Positions 23,084 through 59,031 of a DNA stretch of 59,209 nucleotides are shown piece by piece; the stretch's first letter is position 1; each line of letters starts with the position of its first letter. The position numbers were made by a program, and so were the translations under genes. Source of the stretch: an uncultured Myxococcales bacterium (GTDB lineage Bacteria; Myxococcota_A; UBA9042; DTJE01); assembly GCA_903847405.1 (NCBI GenBank), contig CAINDP010000202.1:1-59209 (forward strand). The letters are read 5' to 3'. The notes under the pieces are model-generated. The model ran no database searches. It was not told the DNA's origin and was given only the letters and a program-made list of their open reading frames with translations.

Positions 23084-24733
23084 ATGTTCACGCCTTCCAC
23101 ATGGCTGGCTGGCCCCTGGCGTCGTCGCGTGGCCGCGATGATATCGTTGACTCTTGTGGCCATCGCCGGCTCCGTGCATCTTCCGCAGCCCATCAGCGGC
23201 GATGCGGCGCTTTACCAACTGGGCGCGATCGCCATGTCCCAGGGCGACGTCCTGTACCGCGATTTCTGGGACCTGAAGAAGCCGGGTATCTACCTGTTCC
23301 ACCTCGCTGCTGGAGAACTCTTCGGCCACGACGAGTTCGGCTTGCACCTGTTCGAACTGATCTACCTGCTGGGACTTTCTGCGCTGCTGCTCGTCGCGCT
23401 GCGCGACGTGTTCCGCACGAAGGTGCTGCGCTGGATGGCCCCCCTCGCCACCGTGGGGGCGTACTACGTGGTCAGCAGCGATTTTCACCTGACACAGCCG
23501 GCCATCCTGGTGTCGCTGCCCGTCTTCCTGACCGGGTGGATGGCGATGAAGAGTGGCGAGGGCCTGCTGCGTCGGTGGCTGTGGAGCGCCGGCGCCGGGA
23601 TGGCAGGTGCCTGTGCGCTGCTGTTCAAGGACTCGCTGGTGCCGTTGGTCCTGACGTTGCTGGTCGCCGGCCCATTTCTGGCCGGGGATCGCACCCCGTT
23701 GCGCCGGATCGGGCTGTCGCTGGGCATCCTGGCCGCGAGCCTCGGCTTCGTACTGCTCTGGATGGGGCTGCACGGAGCCGGCGAGGAATTCCTCTGGACC
23801 GTGTTCCAGTATCCTTCCCAGGCCATGGCGCTGCACCAGGTCCGCCCGCTCTACCGCCTCAGGGACTCGCTGACCTGGTTCGCGCAACACTTCTGGCCGT
23901 TCGGGCTGGCGGTCCTGTTGGTCCCCCTTGGGTGGCAGGGCCTGCGCCGCGAGCGCGAGTTCACCATGTGCGCCCTGTGGCTCGGGGTCGGATTCGTGTG
24001 CATCGTCCTGGAGCCCTTCGCCTGGTGGCAGTTCGACATGCTCCTGCTGACCGTGCCGCTGGGGCTCCTGGCCCTGCGGGGCATCGACGGCCTGATCGAA
24101 TTCCTTGCCGGCCACCAGGAGTGGTCCTTCCCCAACCGCCTCGCGTTCGTTGCCGCCGCTGTTTCCCTGCTGGTGCTGCCCGCAGTCGGCGATTGGAGCG
24201 AGAAGGCCGGAACCCTGACGACCTGGTCCTCGTCTACGGGAGGCGCCCTCGGACTCCAGTTGCGGGTCAGCCCACGCTATCGCGAGATCTGGACGTCCAC
24301 CCGCTTCCTGGATGCCGCGGACGCCCTGCCCGGTCCGATCTACGTCTTTGGCGACCCGCTGGTCCTTCGGATCGCGGGACGCGAGTCTGCCGGCCGCGTG
24401 AACGGCTGGGGCTGGGAGATATTCCTGCCGGAGCAGTGGGTTGAGATCGAGCGCGAATTCCGGGCCGCGCCGCCGTCGTACATCTTCATCGACCACGAAT
24501 ACCAGGCGCTGGTCGTCGAGCGAGCACCGAGCCTGTTGCCGTGGTTGGCCGAAACCTACGTGGTCCAATCCGAGGACTCGCTGGGCACCTGGCATCGACG
24601 GGCGACCTCCGAGGATCCCGGGTGTCCTGCCGGCCCGGCGGCCCCGCCCGACGGTCTTGACAGCCCCGCGGGGAGGGCGCTAGACTCCTCCTCGCTTTGT
24701 GTGCCACGCGGGAATAACTCAGTGGTAGAGTGA
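23084..24733 (+). CDS. GT39/ArnT-like polytopic glycosyltransferase, 3' end running into a tRNA gene
   Basis: 549 residues from the ATG at 23084; an ATG at 23138 directly before TM1 is also possible and no Shine-Dalgarno is seen for either. The GT-C signature is visible after the first transmembrane helix: SGDAALYQLGAIAMSQG then VLYRDFWDLKKPGIYLFH, i.e. the acidic first loop and the KPG/KPP motif that in ArnT/PMT enzymes bind the lipid-phosphate sugar donor. About ten transmembrane segments follow and the C-terminal 120 residues are soluble. The last 26 bp of the frame lie inside tRNA-Gly, and the tRNA promoter lies inside the gene. The natural stop may have been lost and replaced by one in the tRNA D-arm. 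Confidence 0.72.
   Translation: MFTPSTWLAGPWRRRVAAMISLTLVAIAGSVHLPQPISGDAALYQLGAIAMSQGDVLYRDFWDLKKPGIYLFHLAAGELFGHDEFGLHLFELIYLLGLSALLLVALRDVFRTKVLRWMAPLATVGAYYVVSSDFHLTQPAILVSLPVFLTGWMAMKSGEGLLRRWLWSAGAGMAGACALLFKDSLVPLVLTLLVAGPFLAGDRTPLRRIGLSLGILAASLGFVLLWMGLHGAGEEFLWTVFQYPSQAMALHQVRPLYRLRDSLTWFAQHFWPFGLAVLLVPLGWQGLRREREFTMCALWLGVGFVCIVLEPFAWWQFDMLLLTVPLGLLALRGIDGLIEFLAGHQEWSFPNRLAFVAAAVSLLVLPAVGDWSEKAGTLTTWSSSTGGALGLQLRVSPRYREIWTSTRFLDAADALPGPIYVFGDPLVLRIAGRESAGRVNGWGWEIFLPEQWVEIEREFRAAPPSYIFIDHEYQALVVERAPSLLPWLAETYVVQSEDSLGTWHRRATSEDPGCPAGPAAPPDGLDSPAGRALDSSSLCVPRGNNSVVE
24657..24686 (+). promoter_or_regulatory. Predicted sigma70 promoter for tRNA-Gly
   Basis: TTGACA at 24657-24662 is spaced 18 bp from TAGACT at 24681-24686. 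The tRNA begins 21 bp after the -10 element, leaving a short leader. It lies within the 3' end of the membrane-protein frame. Confidence 0.65.
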
Positions 24734-24782
24734 CAGCTTCCCAAGCTGTAGGTCGCGGGTTCGACTCCCGTTTCCCGCTCCA
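24708..24782 (+). tRNA. tRNA-Gly (anticodon CCC)
   Basis: The acceptor stem GCGGGAA pairs with TTCCCGC. The anticodon stem ACAGC/GCTGT encloses the loop TTCCCAA, giving anticodon CCC. The T-arm GCGGGTTCGACTCCCG is canonical and the CCA end is encoded (24780-24782). It reads the GGG codon. Its 3' half and the following terminator are partly duplicated about 8.2 kb downstream (32902-33083), so it is a probable integration site. Confidence 0.95.
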
Positions 24783-24785
24783 ACG

Positions 24786-24812
24786 AAAGCCCCGGTGACG
24801 CCGGGGCTTTTT
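24786..24812 (+). terminator. Rho-independent terminator after tRNA-Gly
   Basis: AAAGCCCCGG, a five-base loop TGACG, then CCGGGGCTTTTT. A 7-bp GC stem extended by A-T pairs and a T5 tract, starting 4 bp after the tRNA. Confidence 0.9.
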
Positions 24813-24962
24813 CGTATCCTCGCCCCCCCTCCATCCACGCAGGGTCACACCAGTAGCACCGGATCACACCCAGCCTTCATCTGATCCGGAAAATCCACGG
24901 CATCCAGACGGAATGGACCTGAGGGTCAACACCCTGTCGCCATCTGTCATGTAAAGCAAATC

Positions 24963-24991
24963 TTGACACGCACTGCGGGCATCTGTAGGTT
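24963..24991 (+). promoter_or_regulatory. Predicted promoter of the Xre/DUF6036 pair
   Basis: TTGACA at 24963-24968, a 17-bp spacer and TAGGTT at 24986-24991. A short inverted repeat GCAAA (24956-24960) / TTTGC (24990-24994) brackets the promoter and could serve autoregulation by the HTH protein. The start codon is 16 bp after the -10 box, so the leader is very short. Confidence 0.5.
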
Positions 24992-25007
24992 TGCGTTGGA
25001 GGCAGGG

Positions 25008-25595
25008 ATGAGCGGCTTCGCCACACGACTGGAGTCCGCAATGCGTGGCCGGGGCATGGGCGTGATGGAACTGGCCCAGCGCGCCTCGGTCTCCCGCCAG
25101 ACGGTCTACAACCTGCTTCGCCCCGACTTCGACCCCTTGAGCCCGGGCATCCGGAAGGTCGCAGGGGCCCTCGACATGGACCCGGTCGACCTCCTGCCCC
25201 GCGCAAGCGATCCAACCGGAGGCGCGGGAAAAGTGATGCGACTGCTGCAGGCAGCGTCGGGAAGAAAGGATGCCCGGGCGTTCGAACTGCTGCCCGCTGC
25301 ATTGGCCGCCCTGGACGTTGCGGCGGTGGAGACACTGCATCCCACCACGGATGCCGGGATCCGGGTCCTGGGGGCCGCCGCCGCGATGGCGGCCGACCTG
25401 ACGTCCAGCGGCCCCCTCCGTTCGTTGGCCGAGACCCTGCGGCGGCAGGAGGACCCCCACCAGGCGCTCTTCTTCGGCCGGGGTCTGGCGGATCCTGTCC
25501 GGGTCGTCGAGGAGACGCCCGCGCCGCTGCGGCGTCACAAGGTCTTCGGGGCCTTCGACACCGACCTGTTCAGGAGGCACCTTGGCAAGGTCTGA
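25008..25595 (+). CDS. Xre-type HTH regulator, probable antitoxin partner
   Basis: 195 residues. The ATG at 25008 has GGAGGCAGG upstream. Residues 1-65 form a Cro/C1-type helix-turn-helix (MELAQRASVSRQTVYNLL). The C-terminal 130 residues are helical with no recognised family. Its stop overlaps the next gene by 14 bp, an arrangement typical of toxin-antitoxin or phage-defence pairs. The pair sits next to the tRNA integration site, supporting acquisition with a mobile element. The antitoxin role is inferred from arrangement, not from a named family. Confidence 0.68.
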   Translation: MSGFATRLESAMRGRGMGVMELAQRASVSRQTVYNLLRPDFDPLSPGIRKVAGALDMDPVDLLPRASDPTGGAGKVMRLLQAASGRKDARAFELLPAALAALDVAAVETLHPTTDAGIRVLGAAAAMAADLTSSGPLRSLAETLRRQEDPHQALFFGRGLADPVRVVEETPAPLRRHKVFGAFDTDLFRRHLGKV

Positions 25596-26178
25596 TGCGC
25601 CGATGCTGTCCCTGAAGGATCTGGAGGACTTCCTGGACGCGGTGGACCGCGCCTTGGGGCCGCCTATCGATCTGGTCCTGGTGGGCGGAACCGCGGTCCA
25701 ACTGCTGTGCCGGGATCCGGATCGGCGTACGCGGGACATCGACACCCTGTCCACCGACACGATCCCGGTCCTGGTCCAGATCGCGGCGACCCATCTCCAA
25801 CCGATCGATATCAACGATCGTGCCGCCCTCTTCGAGTCGTACCTGCCCGACGATTGGCAGGACCGGGTCCGCCTGGTGTTCGATGGCCCGCGAAAGCGGC
25901 TGCGGGTCGTTGTCCCCTGCCCCGAGGATCTGGCCATCATGAAGGTCTTCCGGATGGGCCCGAAGGACGAGGATGACCTCCTCAAGCTGGCCTCCCTGCC
26001 CGGATTCGACCGTGAGGGTTTCCGGGACCGCTTCCTCCGGCTCCTCCCCGTCGCCATCGGGCCCGAGCGACGCCACGCCCAATTCTTCGCTGAGGCATGG
26101 AACGGGCTCTTCCCGGACGAACTGCCCCTGGACATCGACGACGTCCTGAAGGCCGCGGGTGCGGTTCGATCGGCGTGA
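25582..26178 (+). CDS. DUF6036-like nucleotidyltransferase (possible toxin)
   Basis: 198 residues from a TTG at 25582 with AGGAGG 4 bp upstream; an ATG at 25603 is an alternative. VLVGGTAVQLL at about 33-43 and RRTRDIDTLS at about 49-58 match the GG..A..L / R.T.DID pattern of nucleotidyltransferases related to AbiEii, MNT-type and DUF6036 proteins. EDLAIMKVFRMGPKDEDDL in the C-terminal half matches the conserved Lys and acidic segment of that group. Such enzymes transfer nucleotides to tRNA or protein targets. Coupling to the Xre gene suggests a toxin-antitoxin or defence pair; this is an inference. Confidence 0.68.
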   Translation: MARSDAPMLSLKDLEDFLDAVDRALGPPIDLVLVGGTAVQLLCRDPDRRTRDIDTLSTDTIPVLVQIAATHLQPIDINDRAALFESYLPDDWQDRVRLVFDGPRKRLRVVVPCPEDLAIMKVFRMGPKDEDDLLKLASLPGFDREGFRDRFLRLLPVAIGPERRHAQFFAEAWNGLFPDELPLDIDDVLKAAGAVRSA

Positions 26179-26310
26179 ATCCTTCCGTGCCTATGGGTTG
26201 TCTACGGGAGCGGCGGCAGGACGGCAACGGGCGTGCCCAGGTCGTCGATGCGGGCGGCGCGGATCTCGTCGAAGGCCACGCTGCAAACCCAGTCGCCCAT
26301 GAACACCAAC

Positions 26311-26439
26311 CGGGTACGGTTCAGGTACGGTTTGCCCGTCCAGGCGGGCATTTTCCAGCCCAACGGGCTCTTCCCGGCGCTGCAATATCAGATAGTTGTA
26401 TGATTCCGCAGGCTATGGCCCATATTCCCAGGCTGTAGG
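26311..26439. repeat. 129-bp direct repeat, left copy (flanks cassette A)
   Basis: Matches 32788-32916 with about 8 mismatches in 129 bases and no gaps. It begins with a doubled GGTACGGTT motif, contains a GCCCG/CGGGC hairpin, and ends with TTCCCAGGCTGTAGG, nearly the tRNA-Gly anticodon segment TTCCCAAGCTGTAGG. The 130 bp between the nucleotidyltransferase stop and this repeat show no gene. Confidence 0.9.
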
Positions 26440-26575
26440 GCAACCCGTCATCGGCCTCCGGCCGTTCCGCCCAAGGGAATCCGACCCGGCAACGGTCTTT
26501 CGACGTCACCACGACGAACTTGAAACGATCGCGTACTCGGCTGCGACCTACAATCGGGACCGCTGGGGGGGGAGC

Positions 26576-27613
26576 GTGTCGACGATAGGGGCAGGGGGCC
26601 GTTGGACCCTGGTGGTTTTGGTGCTGCTGGTGCTGACGGCGGCACCGCCCGCCTCAGCCGCGTTCCTGTGCATCGTCCGGGTCGCGCCGGTGCCGGGTCT
26701 CGAGCCGGGAGTCCTGGATTCGGCCCTGGCGCTGGAGCGCCGGAAGTGGGACCTGGCGTTCGACCAGGTGGAGTCGGCGAATCTCGAGGCCTGTCCGGCG
26801 GCCCTGACCGGCGAGCCGAGGACCGTCCTGGTGATCGGACCCGGCGCCACCGGCCGGCTGCTGGATGCATCGGGGACGCCTCGCTTCGTGGATCTCGAGA
26901 CGACCGCACCCGGGGAACGCGCGTCCGAACTGGCCCGCTTCACGCTGGCGCTGATGCCGTCCCCCCGCACCGCGTCGCCGACCGCCCTGGTCCCCGGCCC
27001 GGTCCCCGGGCACTCCCGCATCCCGGCCGAGGCCACCATGCCACCGCCGCGCGCGGCCCTGAGCGGCTATGTCGAGGCCGGCGGGTGGTACGCCTGGCAA
27101 CGCGAGCCCCGCATCCATGCCGCTGGGCTGTCGATCGAGACCGGCGTCGCGGCGTTCGACGAGCGGCTGCTGGCGGGCCTCCGAGTCGGGTACCAGACTC
27201 CCGCGGACATCGCGGGGGGCGGCAGCCGCGTGCAGGCGGTGCCCGTGACGGTCGTGGTCCACGGCGGCTTCCGGTGGACGGCCGCGCTCCTGCGCCTGGT
27301 CCTGGAGGCCGGCCTGGAGTGGCGGCGCATCGAGGTCGAGCCCTCCGCGTGGGCGGGAAGCGTGTCGGATCGGTCCCTGGCCGGGGTCCTGGGCGGCGAG
27401 GTGGAGGCGGTGTTCCCGGTCTCCGAGAACCTGCGGATCGGAGTGGCCGTCACGGCGCGGGGATACGTGGGCGGACCGTCCCTGGCGTGGAACGGCGAGC
27501 AGGTGTACCGCGCCCCGTCCCTCGCGGTCGGGGCGGCGGTGCGGCTTGGCGGGGTCTTCCCGTCGCGACGTGCGGGAGAACCTGCGGGAAGGGGCGATGG
27601 ACGCGGACGTTGA
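26576..27613 (+). CDS. Cassette A protein 1: secreted protein with predicted beta-barrel half
   Basis: 345 residues from a GTG at 26576 with GGGGGGGAG directly upstream. The Sec signal peptide ends PPASA. Residues 30-130 form a small globular domain (FLCIVR, PGLEPG, LERRKWDLAF, VLVIGPG) shared with cassette B protein 1 (LEQRKWGIAF, ALVVGPG). After a Pro-rich linker, residues 160-330 alternate polar and apolar residues in strands (GYVEAGGWYAWQ, AGLRVGYQ, GVAVTARGYVGG), suggesting an outer-membrane barrel. No named family is recognised. Its 3' end overlaps the sigma-factor gene by 17 bp. The place of the gene suggests it is the surface sensor for the following sigma/anti-sigma pair. Confidence 0.7.
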   Translation: MSTIGAGGRWTLVVLVLLVLTAAPPASAAFLCIVRVAPVPGLEPGVLDSALALERRKWDLAFDQVESANLEACPAALTGEPRTVLVIGPGATGRLLDASGTPRFVDLETTAPGERASELARFTLALMPSPRTASPTALVPGPVPGHSRIPAEATMPPPRAALSGYVEAGGWYAWQREPRIHAAGLSIETGVAAFDERLLAGLRVGYQTPADIAGGGSRVQAVPVTVVVHGGFRWTAALLRLVLEAGLEWRRIEVEPSAWAGSVSDRSLAGVLGGEVEAVFPVSENLRIGVAVTARGYVGGPSLAWNGEQVYRAPSLAVGAAVRLGGVFPSRRAGEPAGRGDGRGR

Positions 27614-28190
27614 GGTGATCGCACGCTGCCGACGCGGAGATCCGGCCGCCTGGATCGAGCTGTACCGACGCCATGCGCCCACCGTGGCCCGCTTCCTGCG
27701 TCGGCTGGCCGGCTCGTCGGCCGACGTGGACGACCTCGTCCAGCAGGTCTTCGTCGAACTGGTGGCGTCCCTGGACCGGTTCCGCGGCGACGCGCGGTTC
27801 ACCACCTGGCTGTATGGGATCGCGTCGCACGTCGCGGGCAGCCACCTGCGCGGCGAGTCCCTGTGGCGCCGGCACAAGCAGGAGTATGCGGAGTGGTGCG
27901 CCCCCGACGGCGGCGCGGGTTCGGACCCCGCGGCCGTCGCACAGGCGCGCGCGATGCTGGCGTGCACCGGCCGGGCCGTCGGCGCGCTGCGCTTCGAGCA
28001 TCGCGTCGTGTGGATCCTGCACGAGATGGAAGGGCTGGGGGGCGAGGGGATCGCGGCCGCCCTCGGCATCCCCGCGGCCACCGCCCGAGTGCGGCTGTTC
28101 CGAGCGCGCCGCGAGGTGGTGGATGCGCTCGTACGCGAGGGGTTCGCCGCGGACCTGGGAAGGAGGTTCGAATGCGCTGCGAACGACTGA
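27597..28190 (+). CDS. Cassette A protein 2: ECF RNA polymerase sigma factor
   Basis: 197 residues from the ATG at 27597 (GGAAGGGG upstream). Sigma2 region: HAPTVARFLRRL, then DVDDLVQQVFVEL and RFTTWLYGIA, the ECF hallmarks. Sigma4 region: GEGIAAALGIPAATARVRLFRARREV. There is no sigma3. It directs RNA polymerase to unknown promoters and should be held by the anti-sigma protein encoded next. Translation overlaps both neighbours (17 and 19 bp). The paralogue in cassette B shares the same length and motif order. Confidence 0.9.
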   Translation: MDADVEVIARCRRGDPAAWIELYRRHAPTVARFLRRLAGSSADVDDLVQQVFVELVASLDRFRGDARFTTWLYGIASHVAGSHLRGESLWRRHKQEYAEWCAPDGGAGSDPAAVAQARAMLACTGRAVGALRFEHRVVWILHEMEGLGGEGIAAALGIPAATARVRLFRARREVVDALVREGFAADLGRRFECAAND

Positions 28191-29803
28191 CGGTGTGGCT
28201 CGACGGCTGGGACGCGGAGTCGCCCCTGTCCCCGGAGTTCGTCGCGCACCTCGAGACCTGCGACTCCTGCCGGGGGGCCATGCGGGCCTACCGGGACGCC
28301 CTCTCCCTGGCGACGCGAGCGACCGCGCAGACGGCGATCCCCCTGCCGCCCCGGGCCGGAACGCTGGACGCGCGCCTTCGCAGCCGGTTGCGGCGCCGCG
28401 CCATCCGCCGCTGGGCCCCGGCCGTCCTCCTTCCCGCCGCGGCCCTCCTGGCCGTGGCGCTGCGGGTCGCGTGGCCGGGTGCCCCCGTGACCGACGGAAT
28501 CGGGGTCAACGGCCCCCCGGCGGCTGCCGATCCCGCAAGGTCCGGCGCCACCCTCGCCGTTCGGCCCGGCCAGACGGTCTTGTCGGGGACCGAGGGAGCG
28601 GTCGTGGCCGACCCCCGGACGGGGCGGATCGCCCTGGGGCCCGAGACGCGCCTCACGTTCGACGCCTGGAGTCCGGAGGCCACCGCGCTCCGCCTGGAGA
28701 CGGGCGTCGTGCAGGCCGAGGTCGAGCATCGCGCGCCGGGGGAGAGGTTCGAGGTCCGCACGCCATACGTCGTCGTTCGGGTCACGGGGACCCGCTTCGA
28801 GGTGACGCACCGCCCGGGCCTCGATTCCGTGGTGACGGTCCAGGAAGGCGAGGTGGAGGTCGACCGGCCGTCGGGGGAACTGCTCGCCCGGCTTCCGGCC
28901 GGGGGCACGATCCGGGTCGAGAGGCCGAGCTCCGCCCTCGAACCGCCGGTCCCGGCCGAGTCCCCCGCGACCCGGCAGGCCGAGTCCGGGTCTCGCACGC
29001 CGGAAGACGCGGTCGCGCGGGTCCGCCTCCCGTCGCCGGCGACCCCTCTCGCGACGGCGCGAACAGGTCCCGCACCCCGACCCGGCCCGCCGCATCCTCC
29101 CGGAACCGAGGACCTGCTGGCCCGAGTCCGCGCGCTGGCCGCCGACGGCCGCACGGACGAGGCGCTGGCGCTGCTGTCCCTCCGCGACGACCAACCGGAG
29201 GGCCGGGAGCGGCTGCTGGCCGCCCTGGGTGATGCGCTCTGGGTCGCCGGCCGACCGGAGGAGGCCCGGGCGACATACGAACGGGCCCTCGTGCTCTGGA
29301 GCAAGGCCCCCCCGGAGGGCCTCTTCCTGGACCTCGCGATCCTGGTGGGCCAGCGGATGGACCGGCCCATCGAGGCGGGGTCCGTCTGGCGTCGATACCT
29401 GGAGGCCTGGCCCTCGGGCCGGTACGCCGGCCGCGCGCTGCGCGACCTGGCCGCCATCGAGGACACGGCCGGTCGCCCGGACGCCGCCCGCGACCTCCGC
29501 CGTCGGCTCCTGACGGTTGCCCCCCACTCGCCCGAGGCCGCGTCCGCTTTCGCCCGCCTGGGACGGGACCTGCTGGAGGGGCCCGACCTCGACGCCGCCG
29601 CCCGCTGGTTCGCGGCCCGCCTGGACGACCCCGATCGCCTGGTTGCCGAGGCGGCGCTGGTCGGGCTGATGAGGGTGCGCCTGGCCCAGGACCGCCCGCG
29701 CGAGGTCCGGTCCCTGGCGTCCGAGTATGAGCGCCGGTTCCGGGCCGGGACCCGCCGGGACGAGGTCCGTCGCGTCCTCGATGCAGTCCCCCCGTCCCCG
29801 TGA
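28172..29803 (+). CDS. Cassette A protein 3: zinc-finger/TM/FecR/TPR anti-sigma regulator
   Basis: 543 residues. AGGAGG lies 5 bp before the ATG. Order of parts: N-terminal anti-sigma zinc finger HLETCDSC (HxxxCxxC) at about 26-33, one transmembrane helix near 70-95, then a periplasmic FecR domain at about 125-255 (TEGAVVADPRTGRIALG, VVVRVTGTRFEV, VQEGEVEV). A Pro-rich linker is followed by TPR-like helices from about 320 to the end (DALWVAGRPEEARATYERAL). Classical FecR proteins end after the FecR domain and interact with a TonB receptor; here the output face is replaced by TPRs. It probably binds the sigma factor in the cytoplasm and senses a surface signal. Confidence 0.82.
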   Translation: MRCERLTVWLDGWDAESPLSPEFVAHLETCDSCRGAMRAYRDALSLATRATAQTAIPLPPRAGTLDARLRSRLRRRAIRRWAPAVLLPAAALLAVALRVAWPGAPVTDGIGVNGPPAAADPARSGATLAVRPGQTVLSGTEGAVVADPRTGRIALGPETRLTFDAWSPEATALRLETGVVQAEVEHRAPGERFEVRTPYVVVRVTGTRFEVTHRPGLDSVVTVQEGEVEVDRPSGELLARLPAGGTIRVERPSSALEPPVPAESPATRQAESGSRTPEDAVARVRLPSPATPLATARTGPAPRPGPPHPPGTEDLLARVRALAADGRTDEALALLSLRDDQPEGRERLLAALGDALWVAGRPEEARATYERALVLWSKAPPEGLFLDLAILVGQRMDRPIEAGSVWRRYLEAWPSGRYAGRALRDLAAIEDTAGRPDAARDLRRRLLTVAPHSPEAASAFARLGRDLLEGPDLDAAARWFAARLDDPDRLVAEAALVGLMRVRLAQDRPREVRSLASEYERRFRAGTRRDEVRRVLDAVPPSP

Positions 29804-32560: not shown

Positions 32561-32654
32561 GGGTCCTCGGCAACGCCCCCTTTTCTTCCGCCCCCGCCTT
32601 TCCTCCTGCGGGCGCAGGGGCTCATCGCGTGTTTCCTTCCTCTGCATGACCCAC

Positions 32655-32785
32655 CTGCTGGAACTGCTGGAGCAGAAGTTGAAGAACCTGACCGCCGATG
32701 CCGCCCAGGAACCTTTGCACGTCGCGATGGACCACGCCGCGTGACCACCCTCGCCTGCCCGTTCAGAAGGCGATCGCGGGTACGG
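32655..32785. repeat. Dispersed repeat, copy 1 (after cassette A)
   Basis: CTGCTGGAACTGCTGGAGCA begins a block also found at 39188 after cassette B. It encodes in the plus direction a short open tail ending PLHV-x-MDHAA-stop. The last 55 bases (GGACCACGCCGC...CCCGTTCAGAAGG...ATCGCGGG) occur a third time at 43769. It probably represents the end of a lost mobile or accessory gene. Confidence 0.7.
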
Positions 32786-32787
32786 AC

Positions 32788-32916
32788 CGGGTACGGTTCA
32801 GGTACGGTTCGCCCGTCCAGGCGGGCTTTTTCCAGCCCAGCAGGCTCTTCCCGGCGCTGCAATATCAGATAGTTGTATGATTCCGCAGACTACGGGCCAT
32901 ATTCCCAAGCTGTAGG
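32788..32916. repeat. 129-bp direct repeat, right copy
   Basis: Partner of 26311-26439. Here the terminal TTCCCAAGCTGTAGG is identical to tRNA-Gly and runs without a break into the duplicated 3' half of the tRNA. Confidence 0.9.
32811..32831 (+). terminator. Weak terminator-like hairpin inside the 129-bp repeat
   Basis: GCCCG, a six-base loop TCCAGG, then CGGGC followed by TTTTT. The left copy has the same stem but only TTTT interrupted by an A. The stem of five pairs is short. Confidence 0.4.
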
Positions 32917-32926
32917 TCGCGGGTTC

Positions 32927-32986
32927 CAGACGCTGCGGGCTTCGCCCTACGCGTTGCAGACGCTGCGGGCTTCGCCCTACGCGTTC
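32927..32986. repeat. Two tandem 30-bp palindromic units
   Basis: The two units are identical except for the final base. Each contains GGGCTTCGCCC (a 4-bp stem with a TTC loop) inside outer CGC/GCG arms, a REP-like small palindrome. Confidence 0.9.
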
Positions 32987-33009
32987 GACTCCCGTTTCCC
33001 GCTCCAACG

Positions 33010-33036
33010 AAAGCCCCGGTGACGCCGGGGCTTTTT
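33010..33036 (+). terminator. Second copy of the tRNA-Gly terminator
   Basis: AAAGCCCCGG-TGACG-CCGGGGCTTTTT, identical to the hairpin at 24786-24812. Confidence 0.85.
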
Positions 33037-33084
33037 CGTATCTGCGTACCCCCTCCATCAACGTCGGGTCACACCATTGGATCA

Positions 33085-33228: not shown

Positions 33229-33597
33229 CTAATCGATGCATTCAGCAGAAAGGCATCGCTCATCGATGCAGAGGAGGCAGTAGCAGCCCTGGGGACCACT
33301 GGGATCGGGCTTCCGGGTGCAGCCGGAATTGCCGCCGCACTGGGCAACCGAATAGGACGGGTCCAATGCCAGGAAGTCCCTGCAGACATCGGAATGAGCG
33401 CGACAACATGCCCGCGTCGCCTCGTTCGGGAAACCTTCGAGAGCGTCATCCGGTTGAGTATCTGCTCCAGCAAGGTCGTCCTTGGCGCCCAGGCCGGACG
33501 AGCAGGCAACCACGACGGCAAGGAGTGGCCCGGCAAGGATCACGCCGAAGCCCGTTCCTGCCGGCGGCAGAGGGAAAGACCCGTTGAACATTGCCAC
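33229..33597 (-). CDS. Small Cys-rich lipoprotein between the cassettes
   Basis: 122 residues. The start is the GTG at 33597 or the ATG at 33591; no good Shine-Dalgarno is seen. A hydrophobic signal ends AVVVAC, a good lipobox. The mature part has about ten cysteines in motifs RACCRAH, VCRDF, QCGGNSGC, GCYCLLC and a C-terminal CLSAECID. No family is recognised. It is divergent from cassette B protein 1 with a 218-bp gap that shows no other gene. Confidence 0.65.
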   Translation of the reverse strand: MAMFNGSFPLPPAGTGFGVILAGPLLAVVVACSSGLGAKDDLAGADTQPDDALEGFPNEATRACCRAHSDVCRDFLALDPSYSVAQCGGNSGCTRKPDPSGPQGCYCLLCIDERCLSAECID

Positions 33598-33815
33598 ACC
33601 ACCGCCGTTTGACAGTGTTCATCGTACGAAACGGGAGGGGGGGATTCAAGCGCTTCGTCCGCACGAATGAAGCCCTCTCCCGGCGGAACGAGCATCACGC
33701 CGGACTCCGACAGATGCCCCGCCAGGAGCAGTCCGCGATTGCACCCCCCGATGAAACGATCCACGCTGATCCGGCAAATCACGCTGCGAAGAGTTGCGCG
33801 GGGGATTCCGGGACC

Positions 33816-34829
33816 ATGGGGGCCAGTCGTCCAGACATCGCGGCCGTCCCGTTCGTCCTGGCCGTGGTGCTGGCAGCGGCATGCGCCTGGGCAGCCCCGC
33901 CGACCTCGATCCTGTGCGTCGTGCGATCGGGGACTCCCCCGGGCCTTGAGCCGGCGCCCCTGGACGGTGCTCTGTCCCTGGAACAGCGGAAATGGGGGAT
34001 CGCGTTCCGGCGGGTGGACGCCGACTCCCTGGACGCCTGCGCGCCGCCGGACGCCATCGATGCGAACGTGGCCCTGGTCGTGGGCCCGGGGGAATCCGCG
34101 CTGGTCCGGGGCCGGGACGGTACGCGCCGCCCGCTGGACCTGTCTGCCGTGGATGTCCGCTCACGCGCCCAGGACGTGGCTCTGACGGTCATGCGCGAGT
34201 TTCCGCGGACGGGGCGTCCCGCGATGGCATCCCTGGTCGAGTCGAAGCTTCCCGCGTTTCCGCGCCCCCGTCCCGCGCCTGGATCGGTCCTGGCCCGCCC
34301 CTCCTTCGGGGCCTATGTCCAAGTGGGAGGCTGGTACACGTACCAGACGGGGCCGGGGCTGCACGCTGCCGGTCCCGAGGTGGAGGGCGGACTGACCTGG
34401 CTGGAGGAACGCGTCGCCCTGGGCATCCGGCTGGGCTGGCAGCCTTCGAGTACCCTGGCCCAGGCCCCCGTGCCCACCCGCGTGCAGGCCGTGCCCGTGT
34501 CCGTGACCCTCCACGCAGGCGTCCGGCTGGCCTCGGTCCGGGTCCGCGTCGGCCTCGAGATCGGCGCGGAATGGCGGCGGATCACGGCGGGTCCCGCCGG
34601 CCAGGCGCAGCGCACAGGGACCGGGACCGTTGCGCTGCTGGGCGGCGAAGTCGACGTCGTGGTGCCGGTCGGCACGTGGCTGCGGCTGGGGGGCGGAGTG
34701 CTGTTCCGCGGGTACCTGGGCGGGGACAACTGGGACTGGCACGGGCGCACTGCCTATGCCGCTCCCCGCTTCGGGGTGGGTGGAGTCCTGCGGATCGGGC
34801 TGGCCGTGCCCATCGGAAAGGGGGGCTGA
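33816..34829 (+). CDS. Cassette B protein 1: secreted protein with predicted beta-barrel half
   Basis: 337 residues from the ATG at 33816; upstream sequence is G-rich without a clear Shine-Dalgarno. The signal peptide ends CAWAAP. Residues 30-120 carry the conserved SILCVVR, PGLEPAPLDGALSLEQRKWG and ALVVGPG segments shared with cassette A. The barrel-like half repeats the order of cassette A: AYVQVGGWYTYQ, LGIRLGWQ, RVQAVPVSVTLHAG, GAEWRRI, GVLFRGYLGG. The motif RVQAVPV(S/T)V is identical in position. The stop lies 3 bp before the sigma-factor GTG. Function is inferred only from the conserved cassette. Confidence 0.7.
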   Translation: MGASRPDIAAVPFVLAVVLAAACAWAAPPTSILCVVRSGTPPGLEPAPLDGALSLEQRKWGIAFRRVDADSLDACAPPDAIDANVALVVGPGESALVRGRDGTRRPLDLSAVDVRSRAQDVALTVMREFPRTGRPAMASLVESKLPAFPRPRPAPGSVLARPSFGAYVQVGGWYTYQTGPGLHAAGPEVEGGLTWLEERVALGIRLGWQPSSTLAQAPVPTRVQAVPVSVTLHAGVRLASVRVRVGLEIGAEWRRITAGPAGQAQRTGTGTVALLGGEVDVVVPVGTWLRLGGGVLFRGYLGGDNWDWHGRTAYAAPRFGVGGVLRIGLAVPIGKGG

Positions 34830-34832
34830 AGC

Positions 34833-35456
34833 GTGCTCCCGAAGCGTCCCGAAATCCCCCGTCCCGGCCCGGACCCCACCGAAACCCTGGTCGCGCGTTG
34901 CCAGGCGGGCGACGAGCAGGCCTGGCAGGAACTGTATCGCCTGCACGCTCCCACGACCGCGCGGTTCCTGAAGTGCATCCTGGGCCCGGGCCCCGAAATC
35001 GACGACCTCGTCCAGGAGGTCTTCTCGCGCCTTGTCGGATGCCTGGGCCAGTTCCGCCCGGGTCCCCGGTTCACGACCTGGCTGTACGGCATCGCCTCGA
35101 ACGTCGCCCGCGAGCACGCACGCGGCGAGGCGAGGCGGATCCGGCGTTCCCTGGCCTTCCTGGCCTGGTCCTCGGGATCGACAGCCCCGGATCCCATCGA
35201 AGCCATGGAGGCCCGGGAGGACGTGGCCACGATCCTGGCGGCGCTCGAGGGCATGAGCCTCGCGAACCGCACGGTGTGGGTGCTGGGAGAACTGGAGGGC
35301 CTTCCGTCGGACGAGATCGGAAGGGCGCTCCAGACGACGGCGATCACAGTGCGGGTCCGCCTGATGCGGGCCCGGCGGATCGTGGTCAGGGCCCTGCTGG
35401 ACTCCGGTTCGGACCGGCCCCTGGGACCGCCTCGCGACCTTGCGGAGGAGACATGA
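34833..35456 (+). CDS. Cassette B protein 2: ECF RNA polymerase sigma factor
   Basis: 207 residues from a GTG with AAGGGGGG upstream. Sigma2: HAPTTARFLKCI, EIDDLVQEVFSRLV and RFTTWLYGIAS. Sigma4: SDEIGRALQTTAITVRVRLMRARRIV. Its stop overlaps the ATG of the anti-sigma gene (ATGA). It shares the RFTTWLYGIAS block exactly with the cassette A factor but differs in the linker and sigma4 helices, so promoter preference may differ. Confidence 0.9.
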   Translation: MLPKRPEIPRPGPDPTETLVARCQAGDEQAWQELYRLHAPTTARFLKCILGPGPEIDDLVQEVFSRLVGCLGQFRPGPRFTTWLYGIASNVAREHARGEARRIRRSLAFLAWSSGSTAPDPIEAMEAREDVATILAALEGMSLANRTVWVLGELEGLPSDEIGRALQTTAITVRVRLMRARRIVVRALLDSGSDRPLGPPRDLAEET

Positions 35457-37069
35457 ACTGCACGCGACTCCATGACTGGCTGCAGGGATCCCCCGGGTCG
35501 CCGGCCGCGTTCCCGGCCGACCATCTGAGGGACTGCACCGACTGCCAGGAACTGGCGGCGCGACATGAGCGGGCGAAGGTTCTGTTGCGGCAGTTGGCCC
35601 AGGATGAAGCGCCGCCCTGGCCGGGACTGGCCACGTTGCGGACCCGGGCCCGGGCACGCACGCGAGCAAGGCGGCTCGGCTGGATCGCCTTCGGGCTGCC
35701 GATGGCCGCGGGTCTCGCCGTCGCGCTTCGGCTGCTGATGCCGTCGGCGGCCCCCGAGGGGACGGTTCGGATGACCGCGCCCACCGAGGAAACACGGCCG
35801 GAAACGGGCGGTAACCTCGCCGTCGTCGCCGGGACGGTGCTGGACGCGCAGGCGGGCCAGGAGATCCAGACGGGAGATTCGGATGCGACCCTCGCCCGGA
35901 GGGGGACCGGCGTCGTTCGACTGGCGGCCCGTTCGCGGCTGCGCGTCGAGGTGTACTCGGAGGACGCGACCTCGCTGCGACTGGAGGACGGGCTGCTGGA
36001 AGCCCGCGTGGAACACCGCGCCCCCGGTCAATCATTCGAGATTCGCACCGAGTACGCCACGGTCCGGGTCGTCGGGACCCGGTTCACGGTCTCCCACCAC
36101 CCGGGGGCAGACACCGAGGTGCGGGTCGAGGAAGGCGAGGTCGTGGTCGATGCACCGGGAGGCGGACGGTTGGCCCGCATCCCGGCAGGTGGGGCCGCAC
36201 GCTTCGAATCGTCGGATTCCACGGTGCCGATGTCGGCCCAGATGCCGGATCCAGGACTCCCGGGAGACGCCTGCGCGATGGTCGAAGCCCCCAGGAACTC
36301 CGAGCCCTCCCTCCTTCACCGGGCGATTGCGGCCTCCCGACCACTGTCCCAGCCTGCCGTCGCGGACCTCCTGGCGATGGCCCAGGATCTGCTGTCGGCC
36401 GGACACGGCCAGCAGGCTCTGGATCTGCTGGCGACGGCCGCGGACCTTCCGCCCGCCCAGAAGAGCCGGGCCCTGACGATTTCCGGGGACGCGCACCGGG
36501 CGGCCGGAAAGCCCGAGGATGCCCTGCGCGCCTACGAACAGGCCGTGCAGTCCTGGTCGGGGACACCCCCCGAAACGCTGCTGCTCGACCTGTCCTTGGT
36601 GCTGGACGAACTGGGTCGCTCGTCGGAAGCGGCTTCGGTCTGGCAGCGATACCTGGCCGCCTGGCCGAACGGGCGGTTCGTCGGACAGGCCCTGGACGGC
36701 CTGGCGCACGCGGACGAGGCCGCGGGCCGTTTCGACGAGGCGAGGATGCGAATCAACCGGCTGCTGGATCAGGCGCCGTCTGCCCCCGAAGCGATGCCGG
36801 CCTTCGTTCGCATCGGGCGCGTCCTGGTGGATCGCGGGGATCTGGAAGGTGCGGCACGGTGGTTCCAGTCCCGCCTCGACAGCCCCGGCACGGCCCTGGC
36901 CGAGACCGCCCTGGTCGGGCTGATGCGCGTGCGGCTGCAGGAGGGACGCGCGGAAGAAGTCCGCAATCTCGCCGCCGAGCATGGGCGCCGCTTTCCCGAC
37001 GCCCTTCGCAATTCCGAGGTGCGGCGCCTGGTGGAGGCCCTCGCGCCCCCGGTCCAGCCGGCGATGTAA
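35453..37069 (+). CDS. Cassette B protein 3: zinc-finger/TM/FecR/TPR anti-sigma regulator
   Basis: 538 residues with GGAGGAG before the ATG. N-terminal zinc finger HLRDCTDC, a transmembrane helix near 80-97, a FecR domain (TVRVVGTRFTVSHHPG and VRVEEGEVVVDAPGGGRLARIPAGG) and TPR-like repeats from about 310 (GDAHRAAGKPEDALRAYEQAV). The last 60 residues (ALVGLMRVRLQEGRAEEVRNLA) align directly with those of cassette A (ALVGLMRVRLAQDRPREVRSLA), showing common descent. The role is as proposed for the cassette A copy. Confidence 0.82.
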   Translation: MNCTRLHDWLQGSPGSPAAFPADHLRDCTDCQELAARHERAKVLLRQLAQDEAPPWPGLATLRTRARARTRARRLGWIAFGLPMAAGLAVALRLLMPSAAPEGTVRMTAPTEETRPETGGNLAVVAGTVLDAQAGQEIQTGDSDATLARRGTGVVRLAARSRLRVEVYSEDATSLRLEDGLLEARVEHRAPGQSFEIRTEYATVRVVGTRFTVSHHPGADTEVRVEEGEVVVDAPGGGRLARIPAGGAARFESSDSTVPMSAQMPDPGLPGDACAMVEAPRNSEPSLLHRAIAASRPLSQPAVADLLAMAQDLLSAGHGQQALDLLATAADLPPAQKSRALTISGDAHRAAGKPEDALRAYEQAVQSWSGTPPETLLLDLSLVLDELGRSSEAASVWQRYLAAWPNGRFVGQALDGLAHADEAAGRFDEARMRINRLLDQAPSAPEAMPAFVRIGRVLVDRGDLEGAARWFQSRLDSPGTALAETALVGLMRVRLQEGRAEEVRNLAAEHGRRFPDALRNSEVRRLVEALAPPVQPAM

Positions 37070-39143: not shown

Positions 39144-39187
39144 TGTTGCGGGTCTGGATGGCCGCGAAGACCGGCCAGGCCGACCCC

Positions 39188-39330
39188 CTGCTGGAACTGC
39201 TGGAGCAGAATCTGAAGAACCTGTCCGCCGCCGACGCTCGGGAACCCCTGCACGTCCCCATGGACCACGCCGCCTGACCGGCCTCGCGTGCCCGTTCGGA
39301 CCGCAATCGCGGTACGTCCGGGTACGGTCC
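39188..39330. repeat. Dispersed repeat, copy 2 (after cassette B)
   Basis: Same block as 32655-32785, again just after the cassette lipoprotein and again ending in an MDHAA-stop tail and a GGTACG/GGGTACGG doublet. About 100 bp to the next gene (39430) show nothing else. Confidence 0.7.
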
Positions 39331-39429
39331 ACTTTGCCGGCTGCAGCGAAACTGTCCAACCGCGTGAACAGGCACGCATCGGTTGCGGACAGGCACGCGG
39401 AATCGTGGCGGCACGGCCGACGCACCCGC

Positions 39430-43107: not shown

Positions 43108-43613
43108 GATTGTCCTCAGGTGCGTCGATAGAACCATACGGATCCGTGGGGGGGGGTTACAAGCGGGGGCGGACCGTGACGGGCGGGAAGGTTGAACCAT
43201 GGCTGAAATCCCGCCCGGCAGGGCCCGAAAACGCGACTGACATCTACAGTAGCTGTCAGTCACGGCCCCGATTCCGGCCACCTGTTCTGAGGTAAATCCA
43301 GTAGTTGAGTGAGTCCCGTACCCAGAACCACACGCTCGTGGGTACGGTCCTGGGTACGGTTTTTCATTTTTCGGCCTTTTACACGGCTTCGCGGACCCCC
43401 TGGACCACGGTTCCTTCGGTCCCCCAGGCCTCCTTTGCCCGGACCTCCGCCGCGCTCACGGGTGAAGTGAAGCTGACGGCGTTCCTGGCCGCCGCCAGCG
43501 AACCCCTGCACGTTGCAATTCGCCATCCCCGCTGATCGAACCCAGGGGCGAGCACCGGCTGCGGGAACACCTTCTTGCCGAGTACCCAGTTCGCTACCCA
43601 GTTGAGCCCGCCA

Positions 43614-55161: not shown

Positions 55162-55641
55162 ATGGTGGTGAAGAGGCTGTGGTGGGTCGGGATCGGGCTG
55201 GCGTTCGCCCTGGGCTGTGACAGCGGCGATGGCGGCAGCGCGACCGTCAGCGTCAAGAACGACTTCGGGGCCATGCCCCCCTGGACGATCTGCCACGCGA
55301 ACTACCTGGACGTGGAGTTCGGGAAGATCGCCATCGGGGCGACGTCGGGCCCGCAGAAGGTCCAGCCGGGCCTGGACTATGTGCTGATGGTCGCGGCCTG
55401 GAATGACCCGGACTGCACCCCGGCCCACTGCCTGCCCATCGCGACCAGGACCGAGGAAGAGGTCGTGGACGGGCAGACGCGGACCATCACCGTTGCGATG
55501 GCGAACCACCAGGGCCCATGCCCGCCCGAGGGTGTCGCGCCCATCCCGCAGGCCCAGTACGAACGGATCCTCCAGTTGTACCCGGAATACGGGTTCACGC
55601 CGTACGCCGACCGGGCCCAGAACCCGAAGTGCGCACAGTGA
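55162..55641 (+). CDS. Small lipoprotein, first gene of the NikR-linked operon
   Basis: 159 residues from the ATG at 55162 with GGGGGGA upstream. The signal ends AFALGC (lipobox). The mature domain is a small beta protein (ATVSVKNDFGAM, TICHANYLDVEFGKI, TRTITVAMA) with four cysteines and several His. No family is named. Its stop overlaps the next gene (GTGA). It probably lies in the periplasm or on the outer membrane and assists metal uptake; that role is inferred from the operator and from the receptor in the operon. Confidence 0.7.
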   Translation: MVVKRLWWVGIGLAFALGCDSGDGGSATVSVKNDFGAMPPWTICHANYLDVEFGKIAIGATSGPQKVQPGLDYVLMVAAWNDPDCTPAHCLPIATRTEEEVVDGQTRTITVAMANHQGPCPPEGVAPIPQAQYERILQLYPEYGFTPYADRAQNPKCAQ

Positions 55642-56075
55642 CACAGGCCTTGCCGACATGGGCCGCCCGCAGCCGCGCGGTCATCGTGTGCATCCTGCTG
55701 GCGCCGGCCACGCTGGTGACGGGCTGCGACCTGGACTACCCCGAGGTCGTCGTCGTCAACCGCATCGCGGCGGACGTGGTGATCCGCGACCCCGGTTTCA
55801 ACGGGTGCCGGTGGAACGTGACCCTGAACTTCGGGGACGCCACGGTGCCGAAGCGCTGCCTGCCCGGGGAGGATCGGATCCACTTCCAGAAACTGGACCT
55901 CGGGAAGTACGCGGCAGACCTGGCTGCGGCCGGGGCCGACGTCCCGGAGCCGATGTGGTTCAACTACCAGACGGTCAGCGTCCGGACGGTCGGCCAGGGG
56001 GACTTCCGGGTGTTCGAAGTGACCACCGACGATCTGGAACAGGACTTTTCGATCCCGGGGCCCTACGGGCACTGA
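55638..56075 (+). CDS. Small lipoprotein, second gene of the NikR-linked operon
   Basis: 145 residues from a GTG overlapping the upstream stop. A hydrophobic signal ends LVTGC (lipobox). The mature part is a single beta domain (PEVVVVNRIAADVVIRD, CRWNVTLNFGDATVPKRC) with one Cys pair. It resembles the first lipoprotein in size and strand order and may be a distant paralogue. It is followed 10 bp later by the TonB-dependent receptor. Confidence 0.7.
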   Translation: MTQALPTWAARSRAVIVCILLAPATLVTGCDLDYPEVVVVNRIAADVVIRDPGFNGCRWNVTLNFGDATVPKRCLPGEDRIHFQKLDLGKYAADLAAAGADVPEPMWFNYQTVSVRTVGQGDFRVFEVTTDDLEQDFSIPGPYGH

Positions 56076-56085
56076 AGGGGGGCGG

Positions 56086-57978
56086 GTGCATCGGATGCTG
56101 CCCATGGCGGTCCTGGCCCTGGCGGTGTGCTCGACCGCCCGGGCGCAATCCGCCCAGGAACCCCCGCCCGGGCCCCTCCCGGAGGAAGCGCCTCCGGCCA
56201 ACCAGACCGTGATCCAGGCACCCCGCCCCGTTTCGCCCGACCGGACCCAGGACCAACTGGTGATTCCGGGCGATCGCCTGCGGGAAAGTCCCAAGCCGAA
56301 CCTGTTCGAGGCGCTGGCCCAGGAGTCCGCCTCCATCCACGTGACCCGGCGTGGCGTCGGCCCGGCGGGGGTGTCCTCGGGCGCCTCCGGGGGCCTGACG
56401 ATCCGGGGCCTGGGCGGCAGCCCCAACACGCAGGTCGTGGTGGTCGAGGACGGGGTGCCGGACGTGCAGGGCATCTTCGGCCATCCGTTGCCGGACGCGT
56501 ACGTTCCGGCCCTGATCGACCAGATCGCCGTCGTGGAGGGCGGGGACTCGGTCCTGTACGGGACGAACGCCATGGGCGCGGCGATCGTGATCCGCAGCCG
56601 TTGGCGGGAGTTCGACGGCTGGGAGGTCGGGTCGGACACGTCCTACGGCAGTTACACGACCCTGGGCGAAACCGCGACCGCGCTGGTGCGGCACGGCCCG
56701 TGGGACGGCGCCTTCGCGCTGCATGCCCTGCGGACGGACGGGCACCGGGACGGGGCCGGAGGGTCGAACCTGGTCCTGCAGAGCGCGGGTCGGTACCGGT
56801 TCGACGACGGCTGGAGCATCGCCCTGCGAAACAAGGCGGTCCACGTCACGGGGGGCGACCCGGGAACGGTCCAGCACCCGTACACCGACCACACGTTCGA
56901 CGTCTGGCGGGACAACCTGTCGGCGACCGTCGAGTACAACCGCCCCGGGCTGCGCGTGACCCTGCTGCCCTACGCGAACGTCGGGCGCCACCGGTTGTAC
57001 GACGGCTTCCAGTCCAAGGACTGGACAGTGGGTGGGAACGTCGAGGCGTCCATCCGGCTGCACCGGGACGTGGACCTGCTGCTGGGCCTCAACGGGCAGG
57101 ACGTGGACGGGACGGTCGACAACCGCATCCAGGGCACGTCCCGGGCCGTCGATGCCACGGTGGACTTCGCGCACTACAACCAGTTGACGTGGCGGCCGGT
57201 GAAGGGCCTGTCCTTCGTGGCGGGGACGCGGGAACTGGTCAGCCTGAAGTACGGGTTCGTGTTCCTGGGCAAGGCCGGGTTCCGGTGGAACTTCTGGGAC
57301 GGGATGTACGTGCGATCCCGCGTGACCCGCAACTTCCGCCAACCGACGATCCGGGAACTGTACCTGCCCTACCCCGTGGCCAACCCGGACCTGAAACCCG
57401 AAACGTCGCTGAACTGGGACGCGACCATCGGCTATAGCGACTACCGCCACGTCGAGGTCTCGGTGACAGGCTTCCGGACGCAGGCGAAGGATCTGATCAA
57501 GACCTTCGGCGCCTGGCCCGCGGCCGAGGTGGTCAACATCGACCAGATCGTGGTCTGGGGCGTGGAGGGGCGCGTGGCCGTCCGCGACCTGGGGCCGTTC
57601 GGGGCATCGGTGTCGGGGATGTGGCAGGACGTGGGGCGCTACACCCGGCAGAACCCCAGCGCGAAACTGAACGTCACGCTGTCCCTGGCACACGAGTTCG
57701 GCAGCCACCGGATCGCCGGGAGCGTCACGGGGGAGTGGGACCACGGGCTGTTCGCGAACAACCATGGCCGGGACCCGATCCCCGACCCGTTCTTCCTGGA
57801 CGTCGACGTGCGCTACCGGTTCGCGGATCCGGGCCGGGGCTGGGCGGTCGAACCGTACCTGGTCCTGCGCAACGTCCTGAACCGGAACTACGAGTTCATC
57901 CGGGGCTACCAGATGCCCGGGTTCAACCTGCTGGCCGGCCTGAAGGTCGCCCTGGACGGGAAATGGTCGACACCCTGA
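56086..57978 (+). CDS. TonB-dependent outer-membrane receptor, probably for nickel
   Basis: 630 residues from a GTG with GGGGGGCGG upstream. The signal ends ARAQ. A Pro-rich stretch precedes the candidate TonB-box NQTVIQAP (about 40-47). The plug spans about 55-170 with LTIRGLGGSPNTQVVVVEDG and IDQIAVVEGGDSVLYGTNAMGAAIVI, classic plug signatures. The 22-strand barrel runs to the C-terminus, which ends with the usual alternation (FNLLAGLKVAL). It imports a metal complex at the expense of the TonB-dependent proton gradient. Assignment to nickel rests on the NikR-type site upstream and nikR downstream. Confidence 0.85.
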   Translation: MHRMLPMAVLALAVCSTARAQSAQEPPPGPLPEEAPPANQTVIQAPRPVSPDRTQDQLVIPGDRLRESPKPNLFEALAQESASIHVTRRGVGPAGVSSGASGGLTIRGLGGSPNTQVVVVEDGVPDVQGIFGHPLPDAYVPALIDQIAVVEGGDSVLYGTNAMGAAIVIRSRWREFDGWEVGSDTSYGSYTTLGETATALVRHGPWDGAFALHALRTDGHRDGAGGSNLVLQSAGRYRFDDGWSIALRNKAVHVTGGDPGTVQHPYTDHTFDVWRDNLSATVEYNRPGLRVTLLPYANVGRHRLYDGFQSKDWTVGGNVEASIRLHRDVDLLLGLNGQDVDGTVDNRIQGTSRAVDATVDFAHYNQLTWRPVKGLSFVAGTRELVSLKYGFVFLGKAGFRWNFWDGMYVRSRVTRNFRQPTIRELYLPYPVANPDLKPETSLNWDATIGYSDYRHVEVSVTGFRTQAKDLIKTFGAWPAAEVVNIDQIVVWGVEGRVAVRDLGPFGASVSGMWQDVGRYTRQNPSAKLNVTLSLAHEFGSHRIAGSVTGEWDHGLFANNHGRDPIPDPFFLDVDVRYRFADPGRGWAVEPYLVLRNVLNRNYEFIRGYQMPGFNLLAGLKVALDGKWSTP

Positions 57979-57997
57979 AACCGATTGGGAGGTTTTG

Positions 57998-58474
57998 ATG
58001 ACACGCCTGCTCACGCTCGCAGCCCTGTGCCTGGTCCTCGTTTCCGCCGCAGCCTGCCGCGAGATATCACCCCCCACGGCCCTGCCCCGGGTGGTTGCGC
58101 CCCGGCAGCCTGCGGCACCGGCCACCGCGCCGTCGCCGGGGGGACAACCGTCGAACCTCGTGTACCAGCGCTTCGTCCTGAATCCCGAGCCGGTCTACCA
58201 GGAACTGCTGGTCGGGGCGCCGCAGACAGGCGGCATGCGGTCGGGGCGCGTGGTGCTGCTGGCGGGCCAGGAGATGGCGCGCCACTCCACGAAGGACAAC
58301 GAGGAGATGCTGGTCTTCCTGAAGGGGAAGGGGCGCGTCGTGCTGGGCTCCGAGCCCATCCTGATGGAGGAAGGCCAGGCGCTGTACGTCCCGCCGCAGA
58401 ACGAGCACGGGATCTTCAACGACGGTCCCGGGGAACTGCGCTACATGTACATCGTGGCACCGGCCGGGCGCTGA
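57998..58474 (+). CDS. Cupin-domain lipoprotein
   Basis: 158 residues; GGGAGG 5 bp before the ATG. The signal ends LVSAAAC (lipobox), then a Pro/Ala-rich linker. The cupin_2 barrel has motif 1 GQEMARHSTKDNEEMLVFLK and motif 2 GQALYVPPQNEHGIFNDG, with His and Glu residues placed as metal ligands. It may bind or deliver a metal, or sense a ligand in the periplasm. Last gene of the NikR-linked operon; its stop is 19 bp from that of nikR. Confidence 0.78.
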   Translation: MTRLLTLAALCLVLVSAAACREISPPTALPRVVAPRQPAAPATAPSPGGQPSNLVYQRFVLNPEPVYQELLVGAPQTGGMRSGRVVLLAGQEMARHSTKDNEEMLVFLKGKGRVVLGSEPILMEEGQALYVPPQNEHGIFNDGPGELRYMYIVAPAGR

Positions 58475-58493
58475 CGGGAACGCGGGGGCCCGC

Positions 58494-58910
58494 CTACTTC
58501 AGGCGCTTGCCGGTCGTGGTCGCCGTCAGCCTGCCGTGCTTCACGCCCCGCGTGCCCACCAGGGCGTCCGCGATGGGCTGCACGACCGAGGCCCGTCCCT
58601 GGACCGCGATGACCTCCAGGCAGTTGTCGTGGTCCAGGTGGACGTGCAGGGACGACAGGATCACGTCGTGATGGTCGTGCTGCAGGTGGGTCAGACGCTC
58701 GGACAGTTCGCGCACGTGGTGGTCGTACACCAGCGTGACGGTGCCGACGATTTCCTGGTCCCCTTCCCATTCCTCGCGGACCAGCGAATCGCGGATCAGG
58801 TCGCGCAGGGCCTCGGAGCGGTTCGAGTAGCCCCGGCGCAGGGTGGCCTCCTGGAACTGTTCCAGCAGGTCGGCATCCAGCGAGGCGCTGAACCGCACGA
58901 TGTTGCCCAT
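58494..58910 (-). CDS. nikR: Nickel-responsive regulator NikR
   Basis: 138 residues. An N-terminal ribbon-helix-helix (VRFSASLDADLLEQFQEA, then NRSEALRDLIRD) is followed by the ACT-type metal-binding domain. SSLHVHLDHDNCLEV aligns with the high-affinity site of E. coli NikR (His87, His89, Cys95) and HHDVILSS supplies the His76 equivalent; all four Ni ligands are present. It represses nickel uptake genes when nickel is sufficient. It converges on the TonB-receptor operon. No GTATTAC-type site is seen upstream of nikR itself. Confidence 0.93.
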   Translation of the reverse strand: MGNIVRFSASLDADLLEQFQEATLRRGYSNRSEALRDLIRDSLVREEWEGDQEIVGTVTLVYDHHVRELSERLTHLQHDHHDVILSSLHVHLDHDNCLEVIAVQGRASVVQPIADALVGTRGVKHGRLTATTTGKRLK

Positions 58911-59031
58911 GGATGTCCTCCCGGTCCTCGGACCACGACTGCCCGACGATAGCCGATCGACCCGATGGAGGCGAGCCGGGGACGGGGCCGAAGCCAGGGG
59001 CCTTTACTCATCGAGGACGACCCGCCCGGGT

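Follow-up and report, generated by a model that had tools for sequence, protein, structure and literature searches.

A tandem 30-bp unit splits the T-loop of a displaced tRNA-Gly fragment in a putative accreted island of an uncultured Myxococcales bacterium

The window analyzed here, the whole 59,209-nt stretch of contig C202 from an uncultured Myxococcales bacterium, carries an intact tRNA-Gly(CCC) gene at positions 24708-24782 of the forward strand (identified by ARAGORN and as Rfam tRNA), which is the putative integration target. A promoter-like sequence (TTGACA-18-TAGACT, sigma-70-like; 24657-24686) lies directly 5' of the gene, and a terminator hairpin (24783-24818) and a 36-bp flank (24819-24854) follow it on the same strand. 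The 3' half of the gene, its terminator and these 36 bp are repeated at 32902-33078, in two matching blocks (24738-24758 with 32902-32922, and 24759-24854 with 32983-33078) separated by 60 extra bases. The repeat, also on the forward strand, thus comprises a fragment running from the anticodon loop to the GTTC of the T-loop (32902-32926, identical to 24738-24762), the remaining tRNA 3' end from GTTCGA to CCA (32983-33006, 24/24 identical to 24759-24782), a displaced terminator (33007-33042, 36/36 identical to 24783-24818) and a flank with GGGTCACACCA (33043-33078), which is present beside a further copy on contig C87 of this genome and differs at 8/36 positions both from 24819-24854 and from C87. 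The intact locus and the fragment agree at all 81 bp between the start of the fragment in the anticodon loop and the end of the terminator, 21 before the split and 60 after it, and only the intact tRNA scores above its gathering score in an Rfam search. Sequence comparison therefore confirms the initial annotation of a duplicated tRNA-Gly 3' half split in the T-loop by two 30-bp units. The unusual length that it had ascribed to the copy also stands, since the terminator and 36 bp of sequence beyond it are included.

The 60-bp interruption consists of two tandem 30-bp units, 29/30 identical, lying between the GTTC and the GA of the T-loop. The first unit (32927-32956, forward strand) ends in GTTG and the second (32957-32986, forward strand) in GTTC, which is at the same time the GTTC of the T-loop, and the two units are accordingly bracketed by GTTC, GTTG and GTTC. 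A scan of the window for tandem repeats with periods of 15 to 69 (adjacent copies about 93% alike) returned this as the sole case, and no 30-bp case appeared in the five first-order Markov sequences used as control. The units had been described as palindromic, which is true only loosely: folded as DNA, they yield z values of -1.22 and -1.53, and 23 and 18 of 200 shuffles, respectively, fold at least as well.

The genome contains three copies of the unit, the two in the window and one at C87:6805-6834, and all of them lie at tRNA-Gly T-loop junctions. The C87 unit is identical to the window unit at 23/24 positions and inserted at the same nucleotide; it is followed by GTTCGACTCC and then by terminator and flank (118 bp, 89% identity), and beyond this tRNA-Gly remnant the cargo encodes an acetyltransferase of the GNAT family and a protein of the ribbon-helix-helix type. 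There is no tRNA gene on C87, and a truncated radC piece (L013, 6670-6816) is joined to the left of the unit, so that no GTTC occurs there. We considered radC as a source of the unit and rejected it: the C87 radC piece ends at the unit start, and the two have only GACGC in common. A small decayed radC piece is present on contig C31 of the congener G002 as well. The initial description had asked if GTTCGA or T-loops are the target of the unit; in this genome the answer is a limited yes, at two of two loci.

Allowing up to two mismatches, we detected the unit in this genome alone among 52 genomes of the class, and in a phylum sample of 377 genomes, 10 others presented one two-mismatch match each, which is at chance level (6 genomes with the reversed control). 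Exact scans of a genome-contig collection with two patterns and exact scans of a viral-contig collection gave no unit match, and a phage search gave no match. A plasmid search elicited one 43-bp Pseudomonas match, which spans query positions 103-145, corresponding to the acceptor-and-terminator part, and was set aside. The absence of the unit from the class genomes and the collections, and its chance-level occurrence in the phylum, speak against a dispersed repeat.

These data bear on the proposal that a REP-like element inserted into the fragment. As described in PMC3733652, REPs are GTAG- and CGTC-tagged palindromes of high copy number; the unit resembles them in size class and in occurring as a pair and departs from them in having three copies at one site type. 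The chance insertion of a REP or other dispersed palindrome in an attR, which could invoke the 30-bp size, the loose hairpin, the tandem pair and the presence of a Y1 transposase gene in the genome, is extremely improbable in light of the confinement of the only three copies to tRNA-Gly T-loops, a hairpin fold that is only mildly better than that of shuffles, about 10% of which match it, and the bounding of the transposase gene by other, unrelated terminal inverted repeats. The unit is neither abundant nor scattered, and no cognate RAYT gene with the unit on its flanks was found. The single Y1 transposase gene (L090, C82:35045-35383) lies between 21-25-bp inverted repeats, AAGTGGGACAGTCACCCTTTC. 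An assembly or binning artefact might be suspected in a draft genome of 273 contigs, but it is very unlikely, given that two distinct contigs carry the unit/T-loop junction, each in its own sequence context.

The surroundings of the fragment contain repeated element ends. A 131-bp element-end repeat occurs twice on the forward strand: the first copy (26309-26439, 94% identical to 32786-32916) terminates in TTCCCAGGCTGTAGG, 15 bp of the same tRNA core in decayed form and a putative decayed att junction, and the second (32786-32916), in which GGTACGG direct repeats were discerned by eye, leads into the tRNA fragment, which begins right after it. A relic of the same element-end region lies at 39182-39331 on the forward strand (84% identical to 32648-32800). 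The two copies and the relic place several element ends in tandem at this one tRNA locus, as in a tandem accretion array. The left flank of the locus (12.6-22.9 kb) is syntenic with G001:C54 upstream of that contig's tRNA-Gly, and positions 59014-59209 match G002:C31 beyond G002's own fragment with 99% identity. On the basis of this synteny, with the congener G001 on the left and the congener G002 on the right, we read the interval from 24.8 to 59.0 kb (about 34 kb) as an accreted island. Its tRNA-proximal segment carries as cargo a DUF6036 nucleotidyltransferase gene (25582-26178, forward strand), preceded by a 210-aa ORF (24963-25595) with no Pfam match. Four PF00589 integrase genes were found in the genome and none on C202, and because no integrase gene lies within the island, we class it as non-autonomous or a remnant and not as intact.

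The first base of the fragment corresponds to tRNA position 31, two nucleotides 5' of the CCC anticodon, and this start coincides with the anticodon loop, one of the crossover subsites listed in PMC4383910. An intact tRNA-Gly gene with a downstream 3' fragment on the same strand is also the arrangement by which a tRNA-targeted integrative island is recognized. The suggestion that the fragment represents an attR is hence supported: the fragment begins within the anticodon loop, a repeated element end precedes it, and the island around it is bounded by synteny. A plain segmental duplication, which had been put forward as the alternative, is unlikely because the left boundary of homology is the anticodon loop, a tRNA crossover site.

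The same locus was compared in relatives, as the initial annotation had advised, revealing nine cut tRNA-Gly fragments in addition to the syntenic flanks of G001:C54 and G002:C31. The tRNA-region search covered 36 genomes (this one and 35 relatives), and all nine counted junctions were inspected. Seven fragments, from six other genomes of the 35, are cut in the anticodon loop (query start 38 or 39), and two, from two genomes of the 35 (G025 and G034), are cut in the T-loop (query start 58). The count excludes matches across most of the tRNA, contig-edge matches and about ten weaker ones that start elsewhere (e.g. query 13, 16, 28, 43, 47, 51 and 84); one excluded weak match, on C191, is an intact tRNA-Asp. 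PF00589 genes were searched for in nine genomes (G001, G002, G009, G011, G017, G022, G025, G026 and G034). By coordinate subtraction, 4/9 fragments have an integrase gene on the same contig at a distance of 148-1,785 bp (148 and 213 bp in G034:C24, 797 bp in G002:C77 and 1,785 bp in G025:C134), and the remaining 5/9 have no PF00589 gene on their contig in this nine-genome search.

The T-loop-cut fragments are those lying 213 bp (G034) and 1,785 bp (G025) from an integrase gene, a proximity that would favour a larger element using the T-loop subsite, with the unit as its outer end, deleted in the window and partly surviving on C87, where the unit followed by GTTCGA has an attR-like appearance. 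We deem this possible but rather unlikely, as the sequence upstream of the G034 and G025 junctions is unlike the unit and, at E 0.1, C87 and the window share only the unit upstream of the T-loop.

In all three copies of this genome, the terminator and flank go with the fragment. The tRNA-Gly fragment of G002:C77 retains its terminator, followed by exact direct repeats, as expected of an integrase arm. An exact-repeat test was positive for 6/13 stretches and for 0/3 copies of this genome, in which imperfect GGGTCACACC repeats only were discerned by eye. The terminator and flank were examined as a candidate element arm, for which this test gave no confirmation in the copies of this genome; the integrase-arm reading is no more than plausible. 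In G001, G002 and G009 a ACAAGCAGTT-type arm follows the tRNA, and none follows the window tRNA.

To the divergence of the copies, the tRNA and terminator contribute differently from the flank. The intact tRNA locus and the window fragment differ at 0/81 positions in tRNA and terminator and at 8/36 in the flank (Fisher p 4e-5), and the intact locus and C87 differ at 6/60 and 6/36, respectively. Within the flank, three bases common to the window fragment and C87 set them apart from the tRNA copy, and five common to the tRNA copy and C87 set those two apart from the window fragment. The identity at 81/81 positions, as opposed to 6/60 differences, suggests that the window fragment was displaced recently or homogenised and that the C87 fragment was displaced long ago, with the unit present in both. 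The characterization of the attR as old is for this reason doubtful. Judging from these small numbers of sequence differences, a single event followed by conversion and two insertions would both fit.

A recent window fragment and a diverged C87 fragment with the unit at the same nucleotide would also be expected if the unit were a miniature sequence with a site preference for T-loops, inserting there 3' of GTTC, and had reached the C87 fragment and (twice) the window fragment in independent events. Every such insertion would recreate GTTS, accounting for the tandem array. This scenario is nonetheless improbable: it is represented by two loci only, no GTTC lies left of the C87 unit, where the truncated radC is joined, no enzyme has been identified, and the three flank bases common to the fragment and C87 allow for a unit-bearing ancestor followed by conversion. 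A miniature unit directed to tRNA attachment sites, in which about 26 bp private to this genome would be inserted time and again into the T-loops of displaced tRNA-Gly fragments, always exactly 3' of GTTC, appears quite improbable.

Taken together, these observations suggest that the locus is probably an ordinary integration scar in which a small T-loop remnant was duplicated by slippage on GTTC. A crossover in the anticodon loop would have brought an integrative element into tRNA-Gly(CCC), and the element's own 3' half would have restored the tRNA gene. The former 3' half, together with terminator and flank, would have been pushed about 8.2 kb downstream, where it would now join successive accreted elements. 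The length of the copy, whose extent is read directly from the alignment, could be explained by a displaced or element-borne arm comprising the terminator and about 36 bp. The 60-bp interruption would have begun with about 26 bp of foreign DNA left behind at the T-loop, which is the second known integrase subsite; slippage between the flanking GTTC copies may then have duplicated this remnant as a 30-bp step. Against this explanation count the lack of a PF00589 gene on the window contig, the imperfect arm repeats, negative in a test passed by other stretches, and the absence of the arm that might be expected after the tRNA for the element whose end lies at 32786. Furthermore, placing the origin of the remnant in the T-loop draws on two T-loop-cut fragments in another family (G025 and G034), and no source of the unit was found in the collections searched. 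The scar probably has no present function.

Integrase subsites in tRNA genes are reportedly treated by Williams (2002). In the available part of the Islander report these subsites are the anticodon loop, the T loop and the junction of the T and acceptor stems, tandem islands are known, and fragments with a small deletion are mentioned (PMC4383910). The window has in common with Islander tRNA islands the intact tRNA, the downstream same-strand 3' fragment and the anticodon-loop crossover, and differs in lacking an integrase and in having its fragment split by 60 bp, an insertion that this part of PMC4383910 does not mention. The scar itself is of a known type, with the 60-bp split of its fragment as an odd detail; among the literature titles searched, none describes a T-loop-split tRNA fragment, which is no proof of absence. 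The staphylococcal Ccr recombinases belong to the serine family. They are compared with the integrase of Dehalococcoides, where, as in the window, several tandem islands marked by 3'-end repeats follow one RNA gene (there ssrA), and where 31 islands are reported, the 15 that lack integration modules being read as possibly cis-mobilizable or fixed (PMC3146451). Crossover there takes place in the tmRNA T-loop (PMC3146451), whereas the main junction of the window is at the anticodon loop. The T-loop of a tRNA gene is the site of strand exchange for mycobacteriophage Ms6, with the difference that Ms6 concerns phage vectors with an integrase, for which the abstract of PMC1762012 describes no residual short unit, and the window has a short unit and no integrase.

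The tRNA-Gly gene emerges from these comparisons as an integration hot spot used at two subsites across one bacterial class. Should the unit truly be aimed at T-loops, very small DNA units would find a target in displaced tRNA fragments; if not, the locus offers a well-resolved example of accreted-island decay.

PADLOC reported one weak match, which was set aside. Elsewhere in the window, two paralogous gene clusters (26396-29800 and 33588-37069) share 38-46% amino acid identity, FecR and TPR domains being present in the second, and a block encoding a TonB-dependent receptor and NikR (55207-58984) is inverted within the G002 tRNA-Gly island. Direct repeats of GGGTACGG at 43311-43498, with no tRNA piece, resemble those after the G001 tRNA-Gly and perhaps mark a further decayed element end.
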